This document shows, piece after piece, positions 22,501-52,712 of a DNA stretch of 64,000 nt. Below the pieces are notes generated by a model. The model did not search any database. It was not told the DNA's origin and worked only from the letters and a program-made list of their open reading frames with translations. Origin of the DNA: a halophilic archaeon SHRA6 (GTDB lineage: Archaea > Halobacteriota > Halobacteria > Halobacteriales > Haloferacaceae); contig ML241294.1 of assembly GCA_005239175.1 (NCBI GenBank), positions 186,001 through 250,000 on the forward strand, in the 5' to 3' direction. Positions within the stretch are counted from its first letter, which is position 1. Every line of letters begins with the position of its first letter. A program made the translations under genes and the position numbers.

Positions 22501-24487
22501 GAGCATCGTATATCCCCGTCTCAGCATCTTCACTCACATACCAGATGAGATCGGTCGTTGTTCGTTCACCCGGGCGTAGATAGACACTTGCTTCCTCGTC
22601 CCCATCTACCCACTCACCACTGGAATTGCGAACACTAAATCCGAGATAAAATCGGTTCGATTCAGACCCAGTATTCTCTACGGTTACCGTTACCCGAACT
22701 GGATCGCCCTCTCTATGTATGCCAGAGTCGTAATCAACATCAACAATCTCAGCATCAATCTCGGGTGCTTTAGTTTCTTCAAACTCTGCGGTGACGTCGC
22801 GGGCCTCATCCATCGTCACCTCGATCGTCGTATCGTCCTCATCAGCGAAACCGATGTCTCCACTCCACCCCACAAATTCGCTGTCAGGGCCAGGGGTTGC
22901 TGTCAACTCAACCTCGGTCCCTTTCTCGTAGTCTCTCTCGACTGAAGTTGTTGAAATCCCGGGTGGGTCAACCTCAAATCCGCCCTCACCGTCTGTGGTG
23001 GCACGTAATTGATATTCTTGTGACTCTTTTTTGAATGAAGCAGTGACGTCACGAGCTTCATCCATCGTCAGCTCGATCGTCGCATCCCCTTCATCAGCGG
23101 AACCTATGTCACCACTCCACCCCACAAACTGGCTGTCGGGGCCGGATGTTGCTGTCAACACAACCTCGGTCCCTTCCTCGTAGTCCCTCTCGACTGAAGT
23201 TGTAGAAATTCCCGGTGGATTAACCTCAAATCCACCCTCACCGTCTGTGGTGGCACGTAATTGATATTCTTCGGTTTCGGTTTCAACCTCGAAAGTGTCG
23301 AATTCCGTCTTGCCGTCGTACTTAGTGTCCTTACTCTCGGATTTATATACACCGGTCCCCCCATCGTACGTCCCCGGTTCTGAATCATCGGTGAGATCCC
23401 ACGTTAATTCGACAGTCTGGCTCTCGCCTGGAGACAACTCAACTGTTTCGCCCTCACCGACTGACCATCCACCGTCGGGTCCCACAGCCGAGAAATCGAC
23501 CCAAAACGAATGCGTCGTATCTCCAGTGTTTTCGACAGTAACGGACCCGGTGACCGAGTCTCCGGGTTGGTAGGTGCCACTCTCGACATTGAAACCGGTG
23601 ATTTCCGCCTTTGTGGTCGGTTGTTCAACCTCAAAGGCGTCAAATCTCGTCTTACCGTCGTATTTTGTATCTTTACTCTCAGACTTATATACTGCCGTCC
23701 CCCCGTCATACGTCCCCGGTTCCGAATCATCGGTAATGTCCCACGTCAACTCGATAGTCCGGCTCTCGTCCGGTGACAATTCGACCGTTTCGCCCTCACC
23801 GACCGACCACCCACCGTCGGATCCCACAGCCGAGAAATCGACCCAAAACGGATGTGTTGTATCTCCAGTGTTCTCGACAGTAACTGACCCAGTGACCGAG
23901 TCTCCGGGGTGATAGGTGCCACTCTCGACATTGAAACCGGTGATCTCCGCCTTTGTGGTCGGTTGTTCAACCTCGAATGAATCTGATTTTTGATTGTCAG
24001 CAACCCGGTTCTGAAGATTATTTGGGTCTCCCTCCTCCCAAACAGAAACCCGAGCGTCGTACATCCCCGATTCATCATCTTCACTCACATACCAGATGAC
24101 ATCGGTCGTTGTTCGTTCACCCGGGCGTAGATAAATACTTGCTTCGTCATCACCATCTAGCCACTCACCACTGGGGTTTCGAACACTAAATCCGAGATAA
24201 AATCGGTTCGATTCAGACCCAGTATTCTCTACGGTTACCGTTACTCGAACTGGATCGCCTTCTCTATGAATCCCAGAGTCATAATCAACATCAACAATCT
24301 CAGCATCGATACTATCAGTTTGAGTATATGCCTCACCCGGTAGCCGATTTGTGTTATCTCGCTGTGAGCTGTCTTCTGGAGCGGGTGAAGCCCCGACACT
24401 GGGACCAAACCCGATACTGATCATACTTATTAATAACAGAAGCGAAAAGAAAGTCGCAAAAAGGCGAGTACGATCGACACTGACCAT
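19520..24487 (-). CDS. Giant secreted polymorphic toxin, PD-(D/E)XK-like C-terminus
   Basis: A 1655-residue protein. Residues 1-34 are a Sec signal (LFATFFSLLLLISMISIGFG, VGA then SPAPE). Residues 60-402 hold three CARDB-type beta domains; 407-570 two InlB/BACON-like bacterial repeats (FVGWSGDIG in each); 577-1030 further CARDB domains; 1035-1192 carboxypeptidase-regulatory-like domains. Residues 1195-1370 are a helical, partly hydrophobic pre-toxin segment (KEAVEGIIELVKDPLGIIKD). The C-terminal 145 residues carry E1524, D1548 (GALDLK) and E1561-V-K1563 (ELVEVKTR), a PD-(D/E)XK nuclease signature. A stalk plus a variable toxic tip plus a coupled downstream gene is the polymorphic toxin plan. 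Secretion beyond Sec and toxicity are inferred. Confidence 0.75.
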   Translation of the reverse strand: MVSVDRTRLFATFFSLLLLISMISIGFGPSVGASPAPEDSSQRDNTNRLPGEAYTQTDSIDAEIVDVDYDSGIHREGDPVRVTVTVENTGSESNRFYLGFSVRNPSGEWLDGDDEASIYLRPGERTTTDVIWYVSEDDESGMYDARVSVWEEGDPNNLQNRVADNQKSDSFEVEQPTTKAEITGFNVESGTYHPGDSVTGSVTVENTGDTTHPFWVDFSAVGSDGGWSVGEGETVELSPDESRTIELTWDITDDSEPGTYDGGTAVYKSESKDTKYDGKTRFDAFEVEQPTTKAEITGFNVESGTYQPGDSVTGSVTVENTGDTTHSFWVDFSAVGPDGGWSVGEGETVELSPGESQTVELTWDLTDDSEPGTYDGGTGVYKSESKDTKYDGKTEFDTFEVETETEEYQLRATTDGEGGFEVNPPGISTTSVERDYEEGTEVVLTATSGPDSQFVGWSGDIGSADEGDATIELTMDEARDVTASFKKESQEYQLRATTDGEGGFEVDPPGISTTSVERDYEKGTEVELTATPGPDSEFVGWSGDIGFADEDDTTIEVTMDEARDVTAEFEETKAPEIDAEIVDVDYDSGIHREGDPVRVTVTVENTGSESNRFYLGFSVRNSSGEWVDGDEEASVYLRPGERTTTDLIWYVSEDAETGIYDARVSVWEEGDPNNLQNRVADNQQSDSFEVEKPTTEADITEFDVESGTYKPGESVTSSVTVKNTGDTTSSFWVDFSAQEPDSEWSTGEGTAIELSPGEDRAVELTWTVPNGAEPGLYDGGTAVYQSEDKNQKHDGETGSDAFEVTEASEISGRLTAVETDSGEFHPGDTIEATATVENNGTADHTFFVEPRISGPDGTEYSDLGAVGKPVTVEAGDQTEVTVSFTVPETASGGKYDSWLTLWKEDDPDNLQTRLDENEEYDAFGVEKAADGSIVAVEGIPDRYVLDESYDTTVEVSNPTNVDQEYTVSILDQSGTEVTGSSEKQVTVPAGESKSPSFDVELYGTDTERTVTAVLDAQNGTELDERSVTTEPATAGQIDVLVVNEQGEPIPDVTVVPYDNSDSSATTGSDGRTRLTNVSSGETLVYIDDETYDRDYVEVDVEQGETADVKFTVDETANVAGTISDEVGVAVESGTVVVDGREADIQNGKFAFDRPFEPGSKEVLVRINGTIVHETEERLETGDNGLAYDVSVPADGDLSTAELAYIATESFASTAYKGFIFGESGSSIGAIGSGSDAYKTGSGLEAAKEVTSEQIDRRIAESHGAAVGLGTGLKEAVEGIIELVKDPLGIIKDLISLVKTVLEDLGVLEEILAMIPQQIQDKQQEANPHEVDSELNESFAYGWYGGYITAYVAEGVLGSKGVSKISKASKLADVRRAPNKKDVFEKNYNEKSGSTPDFFDDLDPSVSTQLKKLDSSTQQRLKKLRDENKLTDADIEQLGTLIDDGLGARQAGQLLEFSFESADQFRTAIIRHGEQVDSDRLNRYISDLDAAQSHENIENIKGLTQEAANTRSAEARGDITGQYGETKQALKYAEEGKRVEVEPGDGALDLKVTDGSSKELVEVKTRVKGKDTDYQYISGKLTAVERKVNNAKANPDVDVSDSDVVLEINTGTKGSDLESTKSAARQAVEDSTGDLAVDKIRLVADDGSVETISVNK
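22415..22759 (-). repeat. CARDB repeat copy B (near-identical to 23966-24310)
   Basis: It encodes residues 577-691 of the toxin. The protein matches residues 60-174 with few changes (IVDVDYDSGIHREGDPVRVT and SVWEEGDPNNLQNRVADNQ in both), and the DNA is also nearly identical. This indicates a recent internal duplication or gene conversion. Confidence 0.8.
22778..23269 (-). repeat. Two tandem bacterial (InlB/BACON-like) repeats
   Basis: It encodes residues 407-486 and 491-570. Each begins EYQLRATTDGEGGFEV and contains PPGISTTSVERDYE and FVGWSGDIG. The near-identity of the DNA points to recent tandem duplication. Confidence 0.8.
23966..24310 (-). repeat. CARDB repeat copy A
   Basis: It encodes residues 60-174 of the toxin, the partner of the copy at 22415-22759. 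The two following CARDB units (residues 178-287 and 291-402) are also nearly identical to each other (ITGFNVESGTY, GSVTVENTGDTTH). Confidence 0.8.
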
Positions 24488-38563: not shown

Positions 38564-39904
38564 ATGTCGAGGGGATGGCTCCTTTCGTGGGCTGCGGGGT
38601 CGGTTGCACTTGGGGGCGCGTCGCTCGTGGTTCCGCTGTACGTCGTCTCGCTTGGCGGCGATCCGTTCGCACTCGGGCTGCTTGCGTCGGCTGCCGCTTT
38701 CGTCGGCGTTCCCGGCGCGTTGGTGTTCGGCCGGTTGGCCGATCGGACCGGGCACTACCGCGCCTTCGTCCTTGGCGCCTTGCTCATCGTGTCGGCCATG
38801 TTGGTCGTGATTCCGTTGCTTCCGACGATCCCGTCGGTCATCGCGGCCAATGCTGCGATCTGGTTCGCCTTCGCCGCGGGAACGCCGGTGGTGACGCTAC
38901 TTGCGGTGAGTACCGCCCCAGAGACGCAGTGGAGCACGCGGATCGCCGAACTGAACAAGTATCAGGGCATCGGGTGGGCACTCGGCCTGTTGCTCGGTGC
39001 GATCTGGGGGGCCGTGACGGCCTATACCGGCGGACTCGCCGGGGGAACGGAGGGATTGTTTTACGTGTTGGCAGGCTTCGGGGGGATCGGTATTGTGCTC
39101 GGGGCCCGGTACCTTCCGGGGCCTTCCCAGGAGCGATCGGTCTCTGAAACCAAACTCAAGAGAGCGATCCGGCAGGCCGATCGATTCAGCGTCCGTGCAG
39201 TGACGTTTCCGATCACGGTCGGCCGTGCGGACTTTCGATCGCTACACCCCGGTCGGCTGGTCGATCGGTTCACCCCCACACTCGCGGTGTACTTTTTTGC
39301 GGTCACGCTGTTCTTTCTGGGCTTTTCGGCGTTCTTTGCGCCACTGCCAGCGTTTTTGGCCGACAGCGGCTTCACTGACGATCAGATCTTTGCGTTCTAC
39401 CTGATCAGTAGCCTCGCCTCGGCCGTCTTTTTTACCGGCGCAGGGACGATCGCCGGCCGGATGGACGTTGCGGTGTTCCAGGCGATCGGGCTCGGAATTC
39501 GTGGACTCGCGATGCCGGCAGTCGCCGTTGGGGTGCTCGCACTCGGGTCAACCTCGACCGGTGTCGTGGTAACCGCTGGAATCTTCGCGGCGATCGGATT
39601 CACCTGGTCGGTCATCGCTGTCACCGGGGGAACGATCGTCACACAGTTGTCGCCGGCTGCCCTCCGCGGGGAGGCACTCGGCGTTTACGCCGCGCTCGGG
39701 GCGTTCGCTGGCGGGATCGGCAGTATTCTGGGCGGCCGGCTCGGGACCGAGAGCTATCTACTCGCATTTGCAGTCGCAGGCGGGTTTGTGTTGCTCGGGG
39801 CCGGTCTGGTGGTCGTGCTCCGGCGGTGGCGTACAGGTCAAAACAGCGAAAAACCAACCGAGAGGGAGAGTGGTGTTGGGACAGGATCGATCGAAGCTGA
39901 ATAG
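38564..39904 (+). CDS. MFS transporter
   Basis: A 446-residue major facilitator protein with twelve predicted helices. The loop 2-3 signature GRLADRTGHYRAF is near residue 56 and a long central cytoplasmic loop lies at residues 185-240. The substrate cannot be told; the pattern resembles drug or sugar exporters. It follows the CNNM gene by 39 bases. Its last codons (GSIEAE-stop) lie within the first unit of the CGATCG-rich minisatellite, so the C-terminus has been reshaped by repeat growth. Confidence 0.82.
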   Translation: MSRGWLLSWAAGSVALGGASLVVPLYVVSLGGDPFALGLLASAAAFVGVPGALVFGRLADRTGHYRAFVLGALLIVSAMLVVIPLLPTIPSVIAANAAIWFAFAAGTPVVTLLAVSTAPETQWSTRIAELNKYQGIGWALGLLLGAIWGAVTAYTGGLAGGTEGLFYVLAGFGGIGIVLGARYLPGPSQERSVSETKLKRAIRQADRFSVRAVTFPITVGRADFRSLHPGRLVDRFTPTLAVYFFAVTLFFLGFSAFFAPLPAFLADSGFTDDQIFAFYLISSLASAVFFTGAGTIAGRMDVAVFQAIGLGIRGLAMPAVAVGVLALGSTSTGVVVTAGIFAAIGFTWSVIAVTGGTIVTQLSPAALRGEALGVYAALGAFAGGIGSILGGRLGTESYLLAFAVAGGFVLLGAGLVVVLRRWRTGQNSEKPTERESGVGTGSIEAE

Positions 39905-40028
39905 ACCGATCGAAACCGAATAGATCGATCGAAGCTGAATAGACCGATCGAAACCGAATAGATCGATCGAAGCTGAATAGACCGATCGAAACCGAATAGA
40001 TCGATCGAAGCTGAATCGATCGAAGCCG
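39885..40028. repeat. 19/38-bp minisatellite rich in CGATCG
   Basis: Alternating 19-mers GATCGATCGAAGCTGAATA and GACCGATCGAAACCGAATA run without a break from 39885 to 40016, followed by a shortened variant ending GCCGAATA at 40028. There are seven full or near-full units plus the partial one. It begins within the end of the MFS gene and lies before the convergent NUDIX gene. Every unit has CGATCG and an in-frame stop. Confidence 0.9.
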
Positions 40029-42088: not shown

Positions 42089-43696
42089 TCAGAGTCCGCC
42101 TTCAGCGTCTTCCTGGGCAAGCAACACCACCATCGAGAGCCCAGATATCACCAGCAGCAATAGCGCGGGCACCGCCGCGTACTGGTACAATGCCGTCTCT
42201 TGGGCCCGCCAGATCTGGGTGACAATTGTCTCGAACCCTGACGGGCGCAACACGAGCGTCACCGGCAACTCCTTCATTGTGGTCAAAAACACCAGCGCAG
42301 AGCCGGCGACGATGCCCGACCGCGCCAGCGGGAGACTCACCCGCCGGAACGACCCGACGGGCGTCTCTCCCAGTGTCCGACTCGCCTCGATGAGTTGTGA
42401 ATCGATCTGGAGAATCGACGTCCGGGTCGAGCCGACCACCTGCGGGATGAACCGGACGACGTACGCGAAGATCAAAAGCGGCAGCGTGAGATAGATCGCA
42501 GGCGCGTAGCCCGCTCCGAAGTACACGAGCGCGAGCGCGAGGACGATCCCCGGGACGGCGAAGCCCACGTAGGTCGCTCGTTCGAAGACGGTCGCGAGCC
42601 ACGAGTCGTGTCGCCCCGCGAGATATGCGATCGGCAGCGCCGCCAACGCGGCGACGATCGCCGTCGCGGCGGCAACGCTCACAGAATTAACAACCTGAAT
42701 CCACTCGAAAGCCATCGATGGGCGGCGATCGGTCGTCGTCCGGAACAGCCACAGAAGCAGGATCCACACCGGAACGAGAAGCGCGATGACCGAAACCCCC
42801 GCGGGCAACAGCGTCGCGGGCCACCGCAGCGCACCCAGAGACACCCGGCTGTCGACCTGATTGCCTTCGCCGCCCTGGACTGTTCGGTTCGATCGGACTG
42901 CCCACTCCAGCGCCAATACGACCAACACAACCGCCAGCAGCTGCAACGAAAGCAACGCAGCATAATCGCGCCCAAACGCGTTGTACTCGACATAGATCTG
43001 TCGGGTGAACACCGACAGCCGCATGATCGCCGGCGTCCCGAAGTCCGAAACCGCATACAGCGCCGAAAGCAGGCCACCAGCAGCGACTGCGGGGCGGATC
43101 TGTGGAAATGTCACCCGCCGAAACGCCGCCCACCGACCGTGGTTGAGCGATCGCGCTGCATCGATCAACCGCGTGTCAAACGTGATCAACGCCGCACGGG
43201 TCGTGAGATAGACGTACGGGTACGTGTACAGCGTGATGACAAAGATCGCGCCCGGAAGCCCGTAGATTTCGGGTAACCGCTCGATCCCGAGCGGCTCCAA
43301 GAGCGAGTGAAATGCCCCCCGAGGGCCAAATGCAGAGACGAATGCAAACGCGCCGACGTAGCTCGGGACGACAAGCGGCAGCGCGACTGCAACCGACCAG
43401 AATCGACGGAAGGGCAGATCCGTCCGCACCGTTAGATACGCCAGCGGGACACCAAGGAGGATCGACGCCCCGGTGACGCCGACCATGAGCAACAGGCTGT
43501 TGACGAGCACGTCCGCCGTTCGCGCGCTGAAAAGCAGCTCTCTCGCACGATCGGGGTCGACGGTGACCGCCTCAATGACCAACCACAGCATCGGAAAGAC
43601 GAGCGCGGCCGCGATCGCCCCAGAAAGCAGCGTGAGCCCGATCGGCAGGCGATCGTCGGGCGACCGTTCGGTAATGCGTTGAATGTATCCTCTCAT
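42089..43696 (-). CDS. Iron(III) ABC transporter permease (FbpB-like)
   Basis: A 535-residue permease made of two homologous halves of about six helices each. The ABC-coupling loops are near residues 185-205 (TRLIDAARSLNHGRWAAFRR) and 465-485 (QLIEASRTLGETPVGSFRR). This doubled plan is the FbpB/ThiP type that carries Fe3+ or thiamine. Iron is favoured because the substrate-binding lipoprotein in the same cluster has an FbpA-type sequence and all promoters here carry iron boxes. No ATPase gene is seen. Iron box A lies 75-88 bases upstream, shared with the divergent dehydrogenase genes. Confidence 0.85.
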   Translation of the reverse strand: MRGYIQRITERSPDDRLPIGLTLLSGAIAAALVFPMLWLVIEAVTVDPDRARELLFSARTADVLVNSLLLMVGVTGASILLGVPLAYLTVRTDLPFRRFWSVAVALPLVVPSYVGAFAFVSAFGPRGAFHSLLEPLGIERLPEIYGLPGAIFVITLYTYPYVYLTTRAALITFDTRLIDAARSLNHGRWAAFRRVTFPQIRPAVAAGGLLSALYAVSDFGTPAIMRLSVFTRQIYVEYNAFGRDYAALLSLQLLAVVLVVLALEWAVRSNRTVQGGEGNQVDSRVSLGALRWPATLLPAGVSVIALLVPVWILLLWLFRTTTDRRPSMAFEWIQVVNSVSVAAATAIVAALAALPIAYLAGRHDSWLATVFERATYVGFAVPGIVLALALVYFGAGYAPAIYLTLPLLIFAYVVRFIPQVVGSTRTSILQIDSQLIEASRTLGETPVGSFRRVSLPLARSGIVAGSALVFLTTMKELPVTLVLRPSGFETIVTQIWRAQETALYQYAAVPALLLLVISGLSMVVLLAQEDAEGGL

Positions 43697-43768: not shown

Positions 43769-43770
43769 TT

Positions 43771-43784
43771 TTAGGTTTGCCTAA
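43771..43784. promoter_or_regulatory. Iron box A (DtxR-type operator)
   Basis: TTAGG TTTG CCTAA is a perfect inverted repeat matching the DtxR/IdeR/SirR type consensus. It serves the rightward dehydrogenase operon and perhaps also the leftward permease. Confidence 0.8.
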
Positions 43785-43791
43785 TTCGTCC

Positions 43792-44379
43792 ATGGAACTG
43801 ACGCGCCGGGACGCGACCGCGGCGCTCGCCGCGCTTGGAGCGACCGGCGGGATCGCCTACGGCGCTCGGCACTTCGCAAGCGACGATGAGGCGGACGCGG
43901 ACGACAACACCGATGCTGAAACCAACGCCAGCGACGATACGCAGTCTTCTGGGGACGACGACCATCTCCGGTCGACGCTCGTCGCCGTTGCGGGCGTCCT
44001 GTATCCCACCGAGGTCGAGGGGATCGACGGGTTCGTGAACACGTTTCTCGATGGTCGCCTCGACGACTCGCCCCACGCCGAGGGGCTTCGATCGGCGATC
44101 CAAACGCTCGATGAGCACGCTGAGTCATGGTACAACGCCCAGGTCGTCGATATGGAACCAGAAACGGTCGATCAGCTGCTCCGGGAGATGGGCGCGGACA
44201 CCGCTGGCGAAGACCCGAACGGAACCCCAGCCGAGCGAATCCGCTACTACGTCGTCAACGAGTTGTTGCTCGCGTTGTTCACCTCCCCGACCGGCGGTGA
44301 ACTTGTTGGGATCGAGAATCCGATCGGCCATGCCGGCGGACTGGGCAGCTATACACAGGGGCCGGGTGGCGGGCAATGA
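43792..44379 (+). CDS. Gluconate 2-dehydrogenase subunit 3-like protein, Tat-exported
   Basis: A 195-residue protein with a twin-arginine signal at the very start (MELTRRDATAALAALGATGG), an acidic linker and a helical domain (LVAVAGVLYPTEVEGIDGFV, YYVVNELLLALFTSPTGGEL) of the gluconate 2-dehydrogenase subunit 3 family. In such complexes this subunit carries the Tat signal for the flavin subunit, which itself has none, as here. Its TGA overlaps the ATG of the GMC gene. It is under iron box A. Confidence 0.8.
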   Translation: MELTRRDATAALAALGATGGIAYGARHFASDDEADADDNTDAETNASDDTQSSGDDDHLRSTLVAVAGVLYPTEVEGIDGFVNTFLDGRLDDSPHAEGLRSAIQTLDEHAESWYNAQVVDMEPETVDQLLREMGADTAGEDPNGTPAERIRYYVVNELLLALFTSPTGGELVGIENPIGHAGGLGSYTQGPGGGQ

Positions 44380-45962
44380 GTGGGCGCGATCGCACGCCCG
44401 TTGACGATGCCGAGGTCTGTATCATTGGTGCAGGTCCTGCGGGCGGACTCATCGCCGATCGGCTCGCAGCCGACCACACCGTCGTTGTGCTCGACGCCGG
44501 CCCGCGGTTCGATCCGTCCGATCGACTCGAACGGCAAGAGCGGGCGATTCGACCCTCGTACGATCGACCGGACGTGTGGGACGGCGATCCCGAGCGGGAT
44601 GCCCACGCCGCCAGCGGTGAGTGGTTCTACCCGTTGAACCACGCGCGTGTGAAAGGAATTGGGGGGTCGACACTACACTGGCAGGGCATGGTCATGCGCC
44701 TCCACGAGGACGACTTCAACTCCAAGAGCACCCGTGGGGTCGGCGTCGACTGGCCGATCGACTACGCAGATCTGCAGCCGTACTACGCGGCCGCAGAGCG
44801 CGAACTCGGGGTTGCCGGCGCGGATCATCCGTACGCGCCGCCACGTGAGGAGCCGTTTCCGATGACCGAGTTCGAGCCCTCCTACAGCGACAGTCTGTTC
44901 GCCGAAGCCTGCGAGCGACTCGAGATCGACATGCATCCGGTCCCGAACGCCCGAAACTCCGAGTCTTACGACGATCGATCCGCGTGCGTGAGCTACGGGA
45001 CCTGCCAGCCGGTGTGTCCCTCCGGCGCGAAGTACGACGCAACTGTCCACGTCGATCGAGCTGAATCGAAGGGTGCGACGGTGATCGATCGGGCGGTCGT
45101 CGGTCGGCTGGAACACGATCGCGATCGCATCACCGCAGCGGTCTACAACACACCCGACGGGGCTGAACACCGACAGGAAGCAGACGTCTTCGTGCTCGCC
45201 GCGGGCGGCGTCGAAACCCCGCGGCTCCTGTTACTCTCGGAGTCCGACGACTACCCCGAAGGGCTCGCCAACTCCAGTGGCCTCGTCGGCTCGTTCTTCA
45301 TGGATCACCTCTTTGCAGGGATGGGTGGGTTGCTGGACGAACCGACCAGACAGAACCACATTGGTTTCCTCACGAGCGAGTGCCACCAGTTCTACGACGA
45401 CGCCGACACGGAGATCGCCCCGTTCAAACTCGAGTTCTTCAACTACGACGGGCCCTCGTCGGTGACGATGGCGCTCACCGGCGACGACTGGGGTGACGCG
45501 CTGCTCGATCGGGTTCGCGCGGACTACGGCAACCACATCGGAATGGGGGCGCTCGTTGAACAACTGCCAACCGAAGACAGCTACATTGGGCTCGATCGTG
45601 AACAGACTGACCCGTTCGGCAACCCCGTTCCAGACGTCCATTGGACAGTCGACGATCGGGCGCTTCGGACGATCGAACGGGCCAACGAACTTCAGCGGGA
45701 GATCCTGACCGAACTCGGCGTCGAAATCACCTGGCAGGTCGGCCCCGACAACACCGGGCCAGCCTACCACCACATGGGGACAACACGGATGAGCGACGAT
45801 TCGGCCGACGGCGTCGTTCGTCCCGATCTCCGGACCCACGACCTGCAGAACTGCTGGATCGCTTCCAGCGGCGTCTTCCCGACCGGCGGCGCGATGAACC
45901 CGACGCTCACGATCGCCGCGATCGCGCTCAAAGCCGCCAAACACATCGACGAAGCGCTGTAG
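44376..45962 (+). CDS. GMC-family FAD dehydrogenase (large subunit)
   Basis: A 528-residue flavoprotein. The FAD motif is VCIIGAGPAGGLIADRLA, the second GMC signature is GIGGSTLHWQGMVMRLH, a Cys-rich stretch is CVSYGTCQPVCPSGAKYDA, and active-site His and Asn lie in GPAYHHMGTTRM and GAMNPTLTIAA. It likely oxidises a sugar, sugar acid or polyol on the outer face, exported together with subunit 3. A cytochrome c subunit is not in the window. It is in an operon under iron box A. Confidence 0.85.
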   Translation: MSGRDRTPVDDAEVCIIGAGPAGGLIADRLAADHTVVVLDAGPRFDPSDRLERQERAIRPSYDRPDVWDGDPERDAHAASGEWFYPLNHARVKGIGGSTLHWQGMVMRLHEDDFNSKSTRGVGVDWPIDYADLQPYYAAAERELGVAGADHPYAPPREEPFPMTEFEPSYSDSLFAEACERLEIDMHPVPNARNSESYDDRSACVSYGTCQPVCPSGAKYDATVHVDRAESKGATVIDRAVVGRLEHDRDRITAAVYNTPDGAEHRQEADVFVLAAGGVETPRLLLLSESDDYPEGLANSSGLVGSFFMDHLFAGMGGLLDEPTRQNHIGFLTSECHQFYDDADTEIAPFKLEFFNYDGPSSVTMALTGDDWGDALLDRVRADYGNHIGMGALVEQLPTEDSYIGLDREQTDPFGNPVPDVHWTVDDRALRTIERANELQREILTELGVEITWQVGPDNTGPAYHHMGTTRMSDDSADGVVRPDLRTHDLQNCWIASSGVFPTGGAMNPTLTIAAIALKAAKHIDEAL

Positions 45963-45984
45963 GCCCGCACCCAGCCGATCTGTT

Positions 45985-45998
45985 TTAGGCAAGCCTAA
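45985..45998. promoter_or_regulatory. Iron box B (DtxR-type operator)
   Basis: TTAGG CAAG CCTAA lies just upstream of the TATA-like GTTAAGTA at 46001-46008, which is 27 bases before the ATG at 46032. Confidence 0.8.
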
Positions 45999-46031
45999 AG
46001 TGTTAAGTACTTGCCCGCATAACGCCGGGTA

Positions 46032-46778
46032 ATGAAGCTCACAGGGCGATTCCGAGCGAACGGTCGGACCGACGAGTCAGCTGAAACCGACGAAACCGAC
46101 GAGTACACGTTCGATGATCTTGCGGTCGTAATGGGAACGTACAACGAAGAGCAGGCGATCGCACAGGTCCTCACAGACATTGACGAGGTGACGGACGGGA
46201 AGGCCGAAGTGGTCTGTGTCGACGGTTCCTCGGATCGGACACCCGAGATCGCCCGCAAACTCGGCGCAACCGTGATCGAACAGGAGCCGCAGGGGTACGG
46301 CATCGCCGTCCGCGAGGCCGTGTTGACGCCCGATCGGCCGATCGTTGTCACAACCGACTGCGACGACACCTACCCCATGGAACAGCTGCCGGAGTTCCTC
46401 GAGTTGATCAACGAGGGCTACGACGTGGTCAGCGGCGATCGGCTCTACTACGGCGCGGCGGCGATGCCGGCGTTCAATCGCCTCGGCAACCACCTGTTCG
46501 CGCTGACCGCGAGCGTCCTCATGGGCCAGCGCGTCCACGACACGACAACCGGAATGCGCGCATACCGCCGGGAGTTGCTTCACGAGATTGCGTGGACAGA
46601 AAACACCGGGCTCTCCGCAGAGCTACTCATTCGGCCGCTCATGCGCGGGTACGACGTGACCGAACGACCGATCCGGTACGACGAACGCGCTGGCGAGTCG
46701 AAACTTGACCCGATCGAGGGTGGACTCGCGATCGCGAAGTCGATCGTGAAAGTCTGTCTCGAAGAGCGGATCCGCTGA
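46032..46778 (+). CDS. GT2 glycosyltransferase (dolichyl-phosphate sugar synthase-like)
   Basis: A 248-residue family 2 transferase. It has LAVVMGTYNEEQAIAQVLTD, VVCVDGSSDRTPEIARKLGA, the metal-binding TTDCDDTYPMEQ (DxD) and TTGMRAYRRELLHEI. It lacks membrane helices, like DPM1-type synthases that load a sugar from a nucleotide donor onto dolichyl phosphate on the cytoplasmic face. The apparent leaderless start at 46032 and iron box B place it under iron control. It converges with the GT-C gene, with a 6-base gap. Confidence 0.82.
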   Translation: MKLTGRFRANGRTDESAETDETDEYTFDDLAVVMGTYNEEQAIAQVLTDIDEVTDGKAEVVCVDGSSDRTPEIARKLGATVIEQEPQGYGIAVREAVLTPDRPIVVTTDCDDTYPMEQLPEFLELINEGYDVVSGDRLYYGAAAMPAFNRLGNHLFALTASVLMGQRVHDTTTGMRAYRRELLHEIAWTENTGLSAELLIRPLMRGYDVTERPIRYDERAGESKLDPIEGGLAIAKSIVKVCLEERIR

Positions 46779-46784
46779 AACGAG

Positions 46785-48977
46785 TTATTCTTCGGTCTCC
46801 TCCAGCGTTGTCTCGAAGAACACACCGTCGCGGTGCGCATCTGGCTCGTTGGGAAGGTACGTTCCCTCGCTCCCACAGTCGGTGACGAGCGCACAGACCG
46901 ATCGCTCCGGCGGCCAAATTGCCTCGACGGTCTCACCGTCAGTCCGGACTGTCGTTTCTTGCCGGTAGGTGAGCGTCGAGCCGTCCGGCTGGACAAGCGT
47001 CGTCGTCACGACCACGGTGTCGGTTTCGTCGATCGCGACAGTTTCGTCGGAGCCAACCGCGTTGAGAAACGCTCCATCGGGACCGATCGTCCACTCGAAG
47101 GCGATCGTCTCACCTGGATCAGTGACTGTCTCTATAACATAACTGTCATGAGTCTCCAGACGAACTCGTGCGGTTGTCACCTCCGCGGAACCGGGCACAC
47201 CGACCCTCGTTTCGGCGTCGAGACGGTCGCCGCTTCGAACGTCGATCGGCTCGAGTTTCGGAACGACGTGTCTGTTCGGATCGGGAACCCATTCGCCCTT
47301 GTAGGCGTAGCGGTAGTGGGTTCGGTTCGGATAGGCGTCGATCACGGCGAAGTTGTCATCTGGATCGCGATCAAGTGCGTATACCACGTCACCGTCTAGG
47401 CTCGGATCGTGTCGAAGGTACTGAAACGGGTGGTGCTGCCAGTCGCCGTACGGTGTCGGAATAAAGACGAGCGCGTTCTCGAAGTCCGTCTCCTCGATCG
47501 GCGCGTACGCCCGCTCGAACTTGTCGGCGTTGGCGGAGTTCTTCTCGATCGGGTCCGCGACCGCTGCGACGTTTGCACCGCCTGCAATTGCGAGGGCTCC
47601 GATCGCGACAGCGGCCACAAGTGCGGTCGCCGCCCGCCGGTTCGTCCGCTGGGTGAGTGCCGTCCGGAGGCGACGGAGGCCATCGTAGCCGGCGACGGTC
47701 GCGACCGCGGCGAAGGTCGAAAGCGGAACCAACAGATCGAAGTGGTAGAACGGGCCGAGGCCCGAAATCAGCCCATCCGTTGGGTCCGACATTGTCGCGA
47801 GAATGTTGAAATTCCCCCAAAAGAACAGATTTCCGAGCGGGACAGAGACAAACAAGCCCGCAACGAGCACGCCTGCGGTCCGCTTGAATGACGACATGTC
47901 AGTGCGACCGAGATCCGGGTCATCAACACGACCGCGCAGCCATCGCCGAACGGCGATCGCGAGTCCTACTCCTGCCGCCGCCGTGCCGATCGCACCCGCA
48001 GTGAACCAGCGCGTCCCGAAGTACCACAGCACGTAGCCGTTGGCTTCAAGCGCGAGTTCGGGTGTGTAGTCGATCGAGTGTCCCAGAATCCGTCGCCGGC
48101 CGAATCCCGGCCCGTCCATCGGTGCAAATGCCTCGTAGGGGAATGTCAGCGCTGCGCCGGTCAGCCGGAGGTTGTACGCGAGGGTGAGCAGGACGAACGC
48201 CGAGCCGAGCGCGGCGATCACAGCCTGCCGGCGAATCGGCTCTGTGAGCGGTGCTCGATCGGGCGGCGAACGGTTGTCCGTCACCGAGCTGCGACCGTCT
48301 GCACGGACAGACTGGACGAGACCGTCCGCTCGAACGGACTGAACGATCTCGTAACACGCGTGCAGTATGAACGGCGCGGCAAACAACACCGCCGTGTACG
48401 GCCGTGCGAAGAACGCCAGCCCGATCGCAACCCCAGCGACAACAGCAGCACGAAGCGACCGATCGCTGACCGCCCGGAGGTACGCGACTGCGAACGCGAG
48501 GTTCAATGCAGTAGTGGGGGCGTACGGGAGGAAAGTGGACGTATTGACGATCGCAAGCGGCGAGGCCGCAAACACCGCGGCGGCAGCGATCCCAACGCGG
48601 CGATCAAAGCACATCGACCCGAGAAGATACACCAATCCCGCGTTGGCTGCGGCGACCACCGCGAGCGTTACCCGCGGTTCGCCAAACAGCGCCATTGTGA
48701 CGGCGAACATCGCCGCCGGGACGGGCGTGTACTTCGAGTACAGCCGACCGCCGTCCTCAATAAAGAACCACGGCCGAAACGCGCCAGCGAGCTCGCCGGC
48801 GTGAATCTCTAACTGGCCGTTCAGCAGCATCGCCGCCTGTGTGAGGTACACTGCCTCGTCGTGGTTACTCGAGTGGTACGCAAAAACCGTCGAGGAGATA
48901 AAAAGGACCACTGCGCCGGCGAACAGTGCGATCGCCGCGGCGACGAGCGTGTCCCGGTCGATTCGATCGCGCCCCAT
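46785..48977 (-). CDS. GT-C membrane glycosyltransferase (family 39-like)
   Basis: A 730-residue protein. The N-terminal half has about ten to eleven membrane helices, starting LVAAAIALFAGAVVLFISST, with the acidic first-loop motif HSSNHDEAVYL expected of GT-C enzymes that use lipid-phosphate sugars. The C-terminal 250 residues (from FERAYAPIEETDFENALVFI) form a beta-rich, acidic domain probably outside the cell. It starts 12 bases after the stop of the iron-binding lipoprotein gene, so it is read from the same iron-regulated promoter (box C). The likely role is transfer of the dolichol-linked sugar onto a surface acceptor. Confidence 0.78.
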   Translation of the reverse strand: MGRDRIDRDTLVAAAIALFAGAVVLFISSTVFAYHSSNHDEAVYLTQAAMLLNGQLEIHAGELAGAFRPWFFIEDGGRLYSKYTPVPAAMFAVTMALFGEPRVTLAVVAAANAGLVYLLGSMCFDRRVGIAAAAVFAASPLAIVNTSTFLPYAPTTALNLAFAVAYLRAVSDRSLRAAVVAGVAIGLAFFARPYTAVLFAAPFILHACYEIVQSVRADGLVQSVRADGRSSVTDNRSPPDRAPLTEPIRRQAVIAALGSAFVLLTLAYNLRLTGAALTFPYEAFAPMDGPGFGRRRILGHSIDYTPELALEANGYVLWYFGTRWFTAGAIGTAAAGVGLAIAVRRWLRGRVDDPDLGRTDMSSFKRTAGVLVAGLFVSVPLGNLFFWGNFNILATMSDPTDGLISGLGPFYHFDLLVPLSTFAAVATVAGYDGLRRLRTALTQRTNRRAATALVAAVAIGALAIAGGANVAAVADPIEKNSANADKFERAYAPIEETDFENALVFIPTPYGDWQHHPFQYLRHDPSLDGDVVYALDRDPDDNFAVIDAYPNRTHYRYAYKGEWVPDPNRHVVPKLEPIDVRSGDRLDAETRVGVPGSAEVTTARVRLETHDSYVIETVTDPGETIAFEWTIGPDGAFLNAVGSDETVAIDETDTVVVTTTLVQPDGSTLTYRQETTVRTDGETVEAIWPPERSVCALVTDCGSEGTYLPNEPDAHRDGVFFETTLEETEE

Positions 48978-48989
48978 CGTCTGTGAGTC

Positions 48990-50162
48990 TCAGACCTCGA
49001 TGCCGGCGTCGCGCATGAGGTCGACGGTTTCGGCGAGATCAGACAGCTCCGTCAGATCGATGTCCGGGACGTCGAGTTCGTCGATCGTTGGAAGATCGCC
49101 AATCGGTTCCACGTCGGGCACGAGCGGATACTCGAATGTCGATCGCGCGAAGTAGTCCTGTGCCTCTGCCGACAGGAGATGTCGGATGAAATTCTCTGCG
49201 AGGTCAGCGTCGCTCGTGCTGTCAACGACAGCCGCGCCGGCGACGTTGAACACCGCACCCGCGTCGCCCTGCGTGAACGCCGTGCCGATCGACGCCTCCG
49301 GGTTGCCGTCGAGGACGCGCTGGATGTAGTAGTGGTTCGTGAACGCAGCGTCGATCTCGCCGTCGGCGATTGCCTGACAGGCGGCGAACTCGTCGGGATA
49401 GTCGACGATTCCGGCAGCCTGGACGTCTTCGAGCCACTGCCGAGTGGCGTCTTCGCCCTCGATGATACGCATTGCAGTGATGAATGCCTGACAGGAGCCG
49501 TAGGAGGGTGCCCACCCAAGCGTGCCGTCGAACTCCTCTGGGTACGCCATCACGTCGGTCGGCATGTCCGACTCATCGTACTCGTCGGTGTTGTATGGGA
49601 TCGTTCTCGCGCGGCCGGAGGTACCGATCCACTCGTCAGTGTGGAACTCCGATCGGACCATGTCGAGGACCTCCTCGGAGAGCGACGCTGTACGGCCCTC
49701 GTCGGCAAGTGCGCCGAGCGCGCCTGAGTTAACCGAGTAGAATACGTCGGCGGGCGAGCCGCTCCCTTCGTTTGCGATCTGGTTGACGAGGTCGGTTGAG
49801 CCGCCGTAGCGGACCGTGAGCGAGAGGTCGTCATACAGGTCATCGATAAATCCGACAATCTCGCCGACGAGGAACTCCCCACGCCCGGAGTATACCGTGA
49901 GTTCTCCAGCGAGGTCCGGCATGTCGGCCATCGGCACGCCGCCGGGTGCGTCTCGTCCTTCCCGGCCAGAGCCGATCTGGCCCACGGTTGATTCAGTGGT
50001 CGGCTCTTCGGATCCGTCTCCTCCCCCCGAGTCGCCGTTGCCATCGCCGTTTCCGCCACCAAGGCCGTTACAGCCCGCGAGCGCGACGCTGCCAAGTGCG
50101 CCAACGCCTGCGAGTACCCGACGGCGATCGATTCTGTCTGCGTCTCCGTTGTTCTCGTTCAT
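48990..50162 (-). CDS. Iron ABC transporter substrate-binding lipoprotein (FbpA-like)
   Basis: A 390-residue protein with a Tat-type lipoprotein signal (DRRRVLAGVGALGSVALAGC) and a Gly/Asp-rich linker. A periplasmic-binding fold follows with FbpA-like landmarks (ELTVYSGRGEFLVGEIVGF, SPADVFYSVNSGALGALADE, ARTIPYNTDEYDES, TNHYYIQRVL with paired Tyr). It should bind ferric iron outside the membrane and pass it to the permease at 42089. Promoter and iron box C directly precede the ATG. It is cotranscribed with the GT-C gene. Confidence 0.87.
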   Translation of the reverse strand: MNENNGDADRIDRRRVLAGVGALGSVALAGCNGLGGGNGDGNGDSGGGDGSEEPTTESTVGQIGSGREGRDAPGGVPMADMPDLAGELTVYSGRGEFLVGEIVGFIDDLYDDLSLTVRYGGSTDLVNQIANEGSGSPADVFYSVNSGALGALADEGRTASLSEEVLDMVRSEFHTDEWIGTSGRARTIPYNTDEYDESDMPTDVMAYPEEFDGTLGWAPSYGSCQAFITAMRIIEGEDATRQWLEDVQAAGIVDYPDEFAACQAIADGEIDAAFTNHYYIQRVLDGNPEASIGTAFTQGDAGAVFNVAGAAVVDSTSDADLAENFIRHLLSAEAQDYFARSTFEYPLVPDVEPIGDLPTIDELDVPDIDLTELSDLAETVDLMRDAGIEV

Positions 50163-50167
50163 GTATT

Positions 50168-50181
50168 TTAGGCCAACCTAA
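50168..50181. promoter_or_regulatory. Iron box C (DtxR-type operator)
   Basis: TTAGG CCAA CCTAA lies between the TATA box GTATAAGA (minus strand, 50186-50193, 28 bases before the ATG) and the start of the binding-protein gene. Confidence 0.8.
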
Positions 50182-50201
50182 ATAGTCTTATACCCATCGG
50201 T

Positions 50202-51383
50202 TCAGTCGTCCGCCGGCACCGGTGCACGCTTGATCGCGTCGAGACAATCGAGCCAATCGCGCATGTATTCGCCGACGTGAGTGAAGAACGCACCGTTTCG
50301 GTACTGCTCGAAGGAGCCCGACGCGAGTCGATCGGCCATCGAATCGAAGACTTCCGCGTAGCTGTTGCCGTCCGCGCCGGCATCGTCAATGAGTTCCCAG
50401 AGGTGTTCGTTGAGTTCGAGTCCGGCAACCTCGTTGTGGAGGTCGTCGAAGGTCGATCGGGGCGCTTTGTTGTGCGCACAAAGCGGCGCGCCGTTGTAAA
50501 TCCGTTTTCCGAGCACGTCACAGGCGCGTTTGAGGAAGACGCCGCTCCAGATATCGTCAAAGCGACCGACCTCCCACTCGTTGTCGTCCATCGGCAGCTG
50601 ATAGAACGCCGGGATCACTTCCCGGCGGAACGCGAGATTCATCGAACAGACGGTAAGGTAGTTGTTCCGGGCGGCGACGAAGTCCCCGTCGAAGTCGTCG
50701 GCTGTCGTGCGGGTCTGTGCTTGGCCCTGTAGATCGCCGTCCATCAGGATCCGCACGGCGTCGAGGTCCGGAACGTTCGTCCACAGGCCCTGCGAGGCGA
50801 CGACTGATCCCTGTGAAAGGTGGGTCGTGTCTGTCTCGACGGTCTCGTTCATGGCCGAATAGGGGTATCCACGCGGGTACAGTCCATGCTCCTCAGCGTT
50901 CTGATAGAGGACGTTGACCCAGTTCGTGTCCGATCGGACGCGCTCAATCTCGCCCTCAAAGCCGAGGTTGCGCATGTGTTGGCCGAAGAAGTCTTCGTCG
51001 TCGTGTGGCAGCGTATCGTCGTCGATGAAAATTCCGTACTCGAAGCGAGGGTTCGCCCACATGTACAACAGCCCAAAGCTCGTTTCTGCGTGACTTGCCG
51101 CAGGCACGACGTGGGCGTACTCGCTGACGTCTTGGTCGTCGTACCATTCCTGGCGGCGCGAGCCGTCGTACACCGCACCGTCAACGTCCAACGACTCGAG
51201 CATCGCCTCCATCTCGTCGGTGTCACAGAAGTCTTCGGTGACGAGAAGCACGAACAGCCGATCGGTGTCGAATCCGTGCGCGCGGGCGTTCTCGATGTAC
51301 GCCTCCATGCACTCGTACTCGCGGATCGTCGGGACGATCACGCAGATCTTCTCGTCAGACCGATATGGCAGGGTATCGCTCAT
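50202..51383 (-). CDS. RGP/UDP-arabinopyranose mutase-like glycosyltransferase family protein
   Basis: A 393-residue protein of the reversibly glycosylated polypeptide (alpha-1,4-glucan-protein synthase, GT75) type. It begins KICVIVPTIREYECMEAYIE and has FEYGIFIDDDTLPHDDED (the DxD-type donor site), MNLAFRREVIPAFYQLPMDD and RFDDIWSGVFLKRACD. Plant members are UDP-arabinopyranose mutases; the archaeal activity is unknown, but a nucleotide-sugar substrate is likely. It has its own promoter with iron box D 15-28 bases before the ATG. Confidence 0.78.
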   Translation of the reverse strand: MSDTLPYRSDEKICVIVPTIREYECMEAYIENARAHGFDTDRLFVLLVTEDFCDTDEMEAMLESLDVDGAVYDGSRRQEWYDDQDVSEYAHVVPAASHAETSFGLLYMWANPRFEYGIFIDDDTLPHDDEDFFGQHMRNLGFEGEIERVRSDTNWVNVLYQNAEEHGLYPRGYPYSAMNETVETDTTHLSQGSVVASQGLWTNVPDLDAVRILMDGDLQGQAQTRTTADDFDGDFVAARNNYLTVCSMNLAFRREVIPAFYQLPMDDNEWEVGRFDDIWSGVFLKRACDVLGKRIYNGAPLCAHNKAPRSTFDDLHNEVAGLELNEHLWELIDDAGADGNSYAEVFDSMADRLASGSFEQYRNGAFFTHVGEYMRDWLDCLDAIKRAPVPADD

Positions 51384-51397
51384 TGCACAACAGTATT

Positions 51398-51411
51398 TTA
51401 GGTCAGCCTAA
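51398..51411. promoter_or_regulatory. Iron box D (DtxR-type operator)
   Basis: TTAGG TCAG CCTAA lies directly before the RGP-like gene. The operator also contains the TAG stop (51408-51410, minus strand) of the flippase gene. A TATA-like GATATTTA lies 26-33 bases before the ATG. Confidence 0.8.
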
Positions 51412-52502
51412 ATATCTGCCGATTCATGTTCATCGGGTGGTCGATTGCCGTCTATTGTCGCCGTGGAAACGTTCCACGAAACCGCGATCGCGCCGCCGCC
51501 GACGAGCGTGACCACGTTTTTGATCGCGTGATCGAGGATCGCCGCCGCGAGCGCAGTGCTCGCTGCGATCGGCGAGACTGCAACGACGAGCCCAGTGAAC
51601 GCTGCCTCGTAGAGGCCGATGCCGCCCTGTGAGAGAGGCAACACCTTCGCGAGATTGCCGACGCTGACCGCGAATGTGCCAACGACGACGAGCAGCCAGA
51701 CTGACGGCCCTCCGCCGGTCAACGCAGCCAACACCGCGATCGCGGTGATAACATCGAGGATCCACACTACGAGACTCCACGCGCCGATGTCGGCCATGGC
51801 ACGACGATCGGCCGCGACGATTCCAACGTTTCGCGCGAACGCGAGTGCCGGATCGACGACCCGTGAGAGCGGACCCGCCGAGACGCGTGCCCGAACCGCG
51901 GCCGCGATCGGCCGATCGCTTCTAACGAGCCCAACAGTCACTGCTGAAACGCCGACGGCGATCATGCCGACAGCGGTCGCGCCCGCAAGGCCCACCCGAG
52001 GAAGTTCGGTCGTGGCGATCGACGTTCCCGAGAGGAGCACCGCGAGGAAGGCAGCGACACCTAACGCAAGGATCGCGACAAGATCGAACAGCCGCTCAAC
52101 GGCAAGCGACGCAACACCGAGGGTGTACGGGACCTCGCGGCGATCGTTGAGCAGGTAGGCACGGACGCCGTCTCCCGCCCGAGCGGGAACAATCAGATTC
52201 GCCGCCTGGCTGAGAAACACCGTTGCGGTGAGAAAGCCGACACCGAGCGGTCGTCCCATCGCAGCCAGCACCCGCCTGTACCGCTCGCCGCGTAGGGGCC
52301 ACGACAGAGCGTAGACGCAAATTGCGGCGCCTACGAGCACGGGGTTTGCGTCGACGATCGCGTCGATCACGGTTGAGATGTCGATCGACCGGGCGACGAG
52401 AACCGTACCGATCACGAGAACAACGATCGTTCCAAGCAGTTGGACACCTGTATTGGTGCGAACCGTCCGCAAAACCGCTCGGGCCGACGATGCGACGTCC
52501 AT
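51408..52502 (-). CDS. Flippase-like membrane protein (LPG synthase TM / UPF0104 family)
   Basis: A 364-residue protein with about eight membrane helices. Family motifs are RSIDISTVIDAIVDANPVLV, LSWPLRGERYRRVL, FLSQAANLIVPARAGDGVRA, VERLFDLVAI and LPLSQGGIGLYEAAFTGL. This family includes candidates for moving lipid-linked sugars across the membrane in archaeal glycosylation. The iron box and TATA box upstream fix the start at the ATG at 52502; the open frame upstream is not coding. Confidence 0.82.
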   Translation of the reverse strand: MDVASSARAVLRTVRTNTGVQLLGTIVVLVIGTVLVARSIDISTVIDAIVDANPVLVGAAICVYALSWPLRGERYRRVLAAMGRPLGVGFLTATVFLSQAANLIVPARAGDGVRAYLLNDRREVPYTLGVASLAVERLFDLVAILALGVAAFLAVLLSGTSIATTELPRVGLAGATAVGMIAVGVSAVTVGLVRSDRPIAAAVRARVSAGPLSRVVDPALAFARNVGIVAADRRAMADIGAWSLVVWILDVITAIAVLAALTGGGPSVWLLVVVGTFAVSVGNLAKVLPLSQGGIGLYEAAFTGLVVAVSPIAASTALAAAILDHAIKNVVTLVGGGAIAVSWNVSTATIDGNRPPDEHESADI

Positions 52503-52509
52503 CGTTAGT

Positions 52510-52523
52510 TTAGGTTTGCCTAA
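52510..52523. promoter_or_regulatory. Iron box E (DtxR-type operator)
   Basis: TTAGG TTTG CCTAA, identical to box A, lies between the TATA-like CTTATTCTA (minus strand, 52526-52534) and the flippase ATG at 52502. Confidence 0.8.
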
Positions 52524-52712
52524 ATAGAATAAGTCTGTCGGTCTCCAGTCGGGTGGTGAGGTGGGTGTCGGCTCCGCTCGGTCGTGGGTTGGGTTCGCAT
52601 GGCGATCGCCCGTTTTCGGCCGTGTGAACCCGCCACAGCCGCGTTTCAATCCGCTACGCTTTTAGGTCCTGGTACGGAATCAGGGGTACAGTCTAGTGAT
52701 GAGGCAAGATCG

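Follow-up and report, generated by a model that had tools for sequence, protein, structure and literature searches.

Fe(III) acquisition by haloarchaea in hypersaline water is poorly known. In the genome of a haloarchaeon close to Halalkalirubrum salinum, genes for the handling of sugars lie among the genes of a ferric-iron importer and behind the same iron boxes, which raises the question of what a surface sugar could have to do with the uptake of iron. Here we describe this locus, found in a window of 64,000 nt (the whole stretch of DNA that was analysed), and its relatives across the haloarchaea. Our reading, to which we give a probability of about 0.6, is that haloarchaea have a pathway, repressed by iron, for making a surface sugar, exporting it and oxidising it, and that this pathway is an accessory to the FbpABC importer. 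If this is true, ferric uptake throughout a whole class of archaea gains a surface-sugar step, and functions are found for the DUF7846 domain, for an archaeal GT75 mutase, and for a widespread dolichyl-phosphate (Dol-P) sugar transferase without an assigned pathway.

The kinds of enzyme involved are all known; what is new to us is their combination, tied both to FbpABC and to iron boxes. The haloarchaeal Idr/SirR/TroR (FerR) regulons likewise have DtxR-type boxes at ferric-uptake genes, but surface glycosylation members like those found here are described for none of them in the literature that we surveyed, in which we likewise came upon no account of a pathway of this kind. Archaeal DtxR regulons were reportedly defined by Leyn and Rodionov in 2015, in a study that lay outside the scope of this survey and may list some of the genes described here as members.

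Gene order and iron boxes

The leftmost gene of the locus is FbpB (42089-43696, minus strand), a ferric-iron ABC permease with two BPD_transp_1 domains (Pfam PF00528, E 1.9e-29). Divergent from it is GADH3 (43792-44379, plus strand), the small ('hitchhiker') subunit of a sugar dehydrogenase, followed by the GMC oxidoreductase (44376-45962, plus), an FAD sugar dehydrogenase, and by GT2 (46032-46778, plus), of the dolichyl-phosphate sugar synthase type and lacking a C-terminal membrane domain. The remaining genes are all on the minus strand: GTC (46785-48977), a predicted GT-C fold transferase with a C-terminal DUF7846 domain; FbpA (48990-50162), a ferric-ion-binding lipoprotein with a lipobox N-terminus (PDB 7w3w, E 1.8e-58); RGP (50202-51383), of the GT75 NDP-pyranose/furanose mutase family and 96% identical to its counterpart at locus L028; and FLIP (51408-52502), an accessory flippase-like membrane protein (LPG_synthase_TM, TIGR00374). 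FbpC is unlinked and lies on another contig with an iron box of its own. A first-pass annotation had named the five genes at 46032-52502, from GT2 to FLIP, and all of them are present as judged by ORF positions, Pfam and NCBIfam. Elsewhere in the window, a tandem array with 3.7 copies of a 38-bp unit (39885-40023, 98% matches) immediately precedes the 3' end of a NUDIX gene, and two long tandem duplications with units of 252 bp and 342 bp (22791-23974, about 87-88% matches) are possibly repeats inside a protein gene.

Iron boxes with the consensus TTTAGGNNNNCCTAAA occur upstream of GT2 (box 2, TTTAGGCAAGCCTAAA, 45984-45999) and at the promoters of fbpA-GTC (box 3, TTTAGGCCAACCTAAA, 50167-50182), RGP (box 4, TTTAGGTCAGCCTAAA, 51397-51412) and FLIP (box 5, TTTAGGTTTGCCTAAA, 52509-52524), while a fifth site with one mismatch (box 1, TTTAGGTTTGCCTAAT, 43770-43785) lies between FbpB and GADH3 and serves both GADH3-GMC and the divergent FbpB. 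The iron-box genes named in the first-pass annotation have to be extended by GADH3-GMC, FbpB and the unlinked, boxed FbpC. These five are the only matches in the whole window, as against none in each of 100 shuffles, and of the 10 perfect TTAGGN4CCTAA sites in the 3.36-Mb genome five are at this locus; the reversed pattern gives 4 sites in the same genome, so single sites elsewhere call for caution. The boxes stand in AT-rich promoter DNA, between a few bases and some tens of bases ahead of the start codons, and this geometry is as expected for the sites of a repressor.

At the 64 named haloarchaeal loci returned by a scan with the RGP protein, a selection made on protein similarity without regard to boxes, the 63 kb of DNA upstream of module genes hold 228 boxes and the other 1.21 Mb hold 17. 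Counting boxes with at most one mismatch within 200 bp upstream, we find one at 65 of 67 RGP, 60 of 65 GT2, 50 of 62 GADH3 (median distance 22 bp) and 33 of 34 FLIP orthologs, and at 66 of 76 FbpA genes, genomes without the module included. None of 66 GTC genes has a box directly upstream, and these genes follow fbpA(BC). Because GTC begins about 12 bp after fbpA here and never has a box of its own, the cotranscription with the iron-binding lipoprotein proposed earlier is reasonable.

Each unit has a conserved palindrome at its promoter, as is typical of a DtxR-type regulon, and the genome has DtxR-family genes, one of them behind an iron box. We infer that the boxes are the sites of a DtxR-family repressor, which would leave them when iron is low. 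One candidate for an autoregulated controller of this regulon is a 135-aa DtxR-family regulator at the end of an operon that also encodes an FAD/NAD oxidoreductase and has a perfect box 5 bp upstream (L065:3848-4996, G000 C3:556430-557578). Two further boxed places were observed: at L066:5001-5858 a DUF7260 gene beside a DpsA-like ferritin gene is flanked by two perfect boxes, and at L132:1285-2493 (G000 C3:36984-38192) a box that may be a chance site stands 35 bp upstream of the ORF of an Old Yellow Enzyme-like flavin oxidoreductase. For Haloferax volcanii, the table of at least 10-fold changes in the iron-starvation proteome does not visibly name module genes; the paper also refers to a ferR signal found at fhu operons (PMC11349517).

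Co-inheritance of the sugar genes with FbpA

As a check, the first-pass annotation had proposed the conservation of the sugar genes alongside FbpA and FbpB. Among 145 haloarchaeal genomes drawn from the class, similarity searches followed by a comparison of lists place RGP, GTC, GT2 and GMC in an identical set of 115. A GMC match of 51% identity in one genome beyond the 115 (G103) has neither box nor module and is taken as a paralog. FbpA (E <= 1e-30) is found in 141 of the 145 and the flippase in 124, so the 115-genome profile is not common to every gene of the region. The naive probability of such identical lists, 1e-31, ignores phylogeny and is not a p-value. RGP adjoins FbpA in 114 of the 115 genomes, and in the remaining one there is a contig break. 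In the RGP scan, RGP, FbpA and GTC stand together at nearly all of the 64 loci, a few of which are shortened by contig ends; FbpB is usually present and FbpC often. Halorubrum-type loci have FbpB beside GADH3-GMC; in the others it comes after FbpA.

One dismissal would be that ordinary envelope genes were carried beside fbp by the transfer of a gene cluster, with co-occurrence and boxes as by-products. GMC does lie within 20 kb of RGP in 62 of the 115 genomes and GT2 in 91, and shared ancestry inflates the naive statistics of the profile. The genes are, however, far from always neighbours: GT2 is unlinked from RGP in 24 genomes, GMC in 53 and both in 22, and in these 22 the presence is just as identical. 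Unlinked copies also keep their box, in 19 of 20 genomes for GADH3-GMC and in 20 of 20 for GT2. Presence and absence are mixed inside at least six genera, and in one of these (g29) GMC is far from RGP, which means that gains or losses at separate loci went hand in hand. The data contradict cluster transfer, and we consider it very improbable. RGP, GT2, GTC and GMC form, with FbpA, one box-bearing, co-inherited unit.

We also looked for the finding that would have gone against the first-pass proposal, namely sugar genes occurring apart from iron genes or boxes, and did not find it: among the 145 genomes, none has some of the four sugar genes, unboxed, without the others. Loci L107-L113, L117 and L118 have no sugar module and do have fbpA-fbpB, most with boxes near fbpA. 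Since many genomes have FbpAB but no sugar genes, Fbp uptake as such can do without the sugar.

The flippase, which had been counted as part of the set, does not share this behaviour. Its standalone copy adjoins RGP in some clades only; matches in the remaining genomes mostly lie in longer reading frames (about 610-700 aa), and GT2 and GT-C are not accompanied by a conserved flippase of their own in the manner of the Arn and Gtr systems. As a candidate for core membership FLIP is ruled out by its presence profile (124 of 145) and by synteny. A UPF0104 protein of Haloferax volcanii, HVO_1859, which could not be tied to FLIP, is listed as 11.6-fold up in iron starvation (PMC11349517).

Predicted enzymes of the proposed pathway

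The enzyme types encoded fit the earlier proposal of a sugar donor that is prepared, loaded onto lipid and used for transfer outside the membrane. The first enzyme would be RGP (PF03214, E 4.6e-19), which matches the structures of the mutase MtdL with E 5.9e-23 and in which D121-123, R171, S247, R274, D277 and H304 are invariant among 67 orthologs. They correspond to the catalytic and metal residues D109-111, R159, S228, R257, D260 and H287 of MtdL, which include the DDD metal motif and the autoglycosylated Arg (PMC9937993); metal motif, autoglycosylated Arg, Ser, Arg, Asp and His of the GT75 family are thus all kept. RGP would accordingly be expected to convert an NDP-pyranose to an NDP-furanose. 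As to the nucleotide base, the sequence gives mixed signals, Pro18 being plant-like and Ser97 MtdL-like. All tested catalytic and metal residues of plant UAM/RGP, MtdL and Hyg20 are common to the haloarchaeal RGP (PMC9937993), but these characterised GT75 mutases serve plant cell walls or antibiotics.

GT2 scores 401.5 bits against the NCBIfam equivalog NF041391, 'dolichyl-phosphate hexose transferase' (cut-off 375), resembles the Dol-P-Man synthase of P. furiosus (5mlz, E 1.4e-10) as well as ArnC, and has invariant D109 and D111 in its DxD motif, as in Dol-P sugar synthases. Its family membership suggests that it loads the sugar onto dolichyl phosphate. Two Dol-P sugar transferases likened to GT2 by description only, AepG of Haloarcula hispanica and HVO_1613 of Haloferax volcanii, act apart from N-glycosylation (PMC9943897); the Dol-P-GlcA that AepG makes is used for exopolysaccharide. 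The lipid-linked sugar would then be turned outward by FLIP or another flippase.

Transfer to an acceptor outside the membrane would fall to GTC. It has an N-terminal PMT_2 domain (PF13231, 9e-9) and, at its C-terminus, DUF7846 (PF25230); the loop-1 motif HSxNHDE(A/G)VYL is conserved, as are K82-Y83-P85, and D40, E41 and K82 are invariant across orthologs, D40 and E41 being the acidic residues of the first outer loop. A sequence search of the PDB gave no match for GTC; a fold search found GT-C relatives. In its AF2 model (pLDDT 87.6, pTM 0.88), each of the 27 Foldseek hits with E <= 0.001 is either a GT-C enzyme or a complex that includes one. VIA Z values are 20-25, and ArnT, AglB, ALG9, AftA, EmbB and PMT are among the matches; in this model GTC has the GT-C fold. 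The DUF7846 part is predicted with confidence as a beta-rich domain. On its own it finds no clear structural match among the matches listed (best Z about 6), and so it gives no clue to the acceptor. It occurs once per module-positive genome and in none of 85 sampled non-haloarchaeal members of the phylum; among 14 control genomes it is found in Haloferax volcanii only, which opens the proposed pathway to standard genetics.

Similar chains are known elsewhere. In ArnC/ArnT and GtrA/GtrB/Gtr, too, a GT2 enzyme loads polyprenyl phosphate, a flippase turns the sugar and a GT-C enzyme transfers it outside; the haloarchaeal set differs in its GT75 mutase, its Tat-exported FAD/3Fe-4S dehydrogenase, its iron boxes and its obligate Fbp neighbour, and its flippase is not conserved. 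The mycobacterial decaprenyl-phosphoryl-arabinofuranose (Emb-Aft) route likewise presents a furanose on polyprenyl phosphate to GT-C enzymes, and the GTC model matches AftA and EmbB. There the arabinofuranose is made by UbiA/DprE1-DprE2, whereas here a predicted GT75 mutase would supply the furanose, and we know of no iron control of this kind in the mycobacterial route. The sugar that GTC would transfer is probably a furanose.

The first-pass route lacked one conserved step altogether, a Tat-exported FAD/3Fe-4S sugar dehydrogenase found in the same 115 genomes as RGP. The closest PDB match of GMC is the FAD glucose dehydrogenase of Burkholderia (8hdd/6a2u, E 1.6e-84), and its C204-x5-C210-x3-C214 belongs to a C-x5-C-x3-C motif kept in all 60 complete orthologs, the cysteines being the 3Fe-4S ligands of the Burkholderia enzyme (PMC6719666). 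GADH3 (PF13618, E 1.9e-8) starts with MELTRRD; its orthologs have N-termini of this twin-arginine type, some with a lipobox, as befits a Tat hitchhiker subunit, and a sequence search of the PDB gave only chance hits. The Burkholderia cepacia enzyme consists of GMC protein, hitchhiker and multiheme cytochrome c (PMC6719666), and the first two are shared here, 3Fe-4S cysteines and Tat small subunit included; no cytochrome c gene is among the recurrent neighbours at our loci, and iron boxes and co-inherited glycosylation genes are further differences. Motif and co-inheritance together suggest that GADH3-GMC oxidises the attached or released surface sugar by means of FAD and a 3Fe-4S cluster.

This enzyme could itself be the heart of the matter, with electrons passing from sugar to a surface 3Fe-4S cluster and on to Fe(III), so that the core function would be extracellular ferric reduction and the glycosylation genes would supply substrate or anchor. 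The conservation throughout the complete orthologs of the Fe-S ligands of direct-electron-transfer dehydrogenases favours this, as does the lack, among recurrent genes of the loci, of a cytochrome c that could accept the electrons; halocyanins, however, could accept the electrons, and importers of the FbpA type take Fe(III), not Fe(II). To our knowledge the GMC/FAD glucose dehydrogenase family has no dedicated ferric reductase, which also counts against the idea, and we think it decidedly unlikely.

The possible product and its proposed link to the importer

FbpA is, judging from its sequence, a true ferric-binding protein, with the ferric-binding fold and an iron-binding tyrosine pair, Y278-Y279, that is invariant in module loci. 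The divergence of GTC follows that of FbpA and FbpB closely (partial r given RGP 0.87 and 0.85), about as closely as these two follow each other (0.89), compared with 0.21 for GT2 and FbpA. Between the Natrinema loci L006 and L030, RGP and GT2 are 88-89% identical, and FbpA, FbpB and GTC only 47, 54 and 45%, which indicates that fbpA-fbpB-GTC was swapped as one cassette while the supply of the donor stayed the same. The swap fits an acceptor or product of GTC that is matched to the importer. GTC and fbpAB share one operon in many genomes, and this linkage is the simpler alternative, to which their joint replacement may be due.

An acceptor close at hand would be the importer itself: GTC may glycosylate FbpA or FbpB and so stabilise or protect the surface iron-binding protein, while the dehydrogenase trims or oxidises the glycan. 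This we regard as possible, if on the unlikely side. The place of GTC in the fbp operon, its divergence in step with FbpA and FbpB and the replacement of the trio together speak for it, and among the nearest folds are those of PMT- and OST-type GT-C enzymes, whose acceptors are proteins. The linker of FbpA was tried as an O-glycosylation target and rejected: its median Ser/Thr fraction is 0.18 with the module and 0.22 without, in some linkers there are just 3 Ser/Thr, and an N-x-S/T sequon is missing from 31 of 66 FbpAs. FbpA is therefore not an obligate linker glycoprotein, although other sites could be used, and the need for a sugar dehydrogenase is not obvious.

Another acceptor could be a lipid. 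GTC is a near structural match to ArnT (TMt 0.56), which modifies lipid A, and the module might belong to a remodelling of the envelope at low iron, its product being a glycolipid or a general glycan of the envelope that has no direct link to ferric capture. The service of AepG in exopolysaccharide and not in protein glycosylation is a haloarchaeal precedent (PMC9943897). General remodelling would, however, not lead one to expect RGP beside FbpA in 114 of 115 genomes or the replacement of GTC with fbpAB, and the genes that recur in the module loci include neither a polymerase nor additional transferases; we judge it unlikely.

We return, then, to a pathway that would work as an accessory of FbpABC. 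Its product would help in the uptake of iron, in the likeliest case by binding Fe(III) as a ligand, surface-borne or soluble, that matches FbpA. Against this reading stand the Haloferax proteome table, the many genomes with FbpAB alone, the FbpA linkers that are not enriched in Ser/Thr, the operon shared by GTC and fbpAB, and the cost of an Fe-S enzyme to a cell starved of iron. More tentatively still, and with considerable doubt, we suggest that a surface or lipid-borne sugar is oxidised outside into a ferric ligand or ferric reductant and handed to the matched FbpA, which would amount to a glycan-based, siderophore-like capture spread across haloarchaea. In Natrinema-type loci, a gene for a GalE-like NAD epimerase precedes FLIP-RGP (L006:7766-8695 and L030:7661-8728) and may supply the nucleotide sugar. 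HVO_0655, a GalE-like protein of Haloferax volcanii that resembles this epimerase by description only, is given as 12.7-fold up in iron starvation (PMC11349517).
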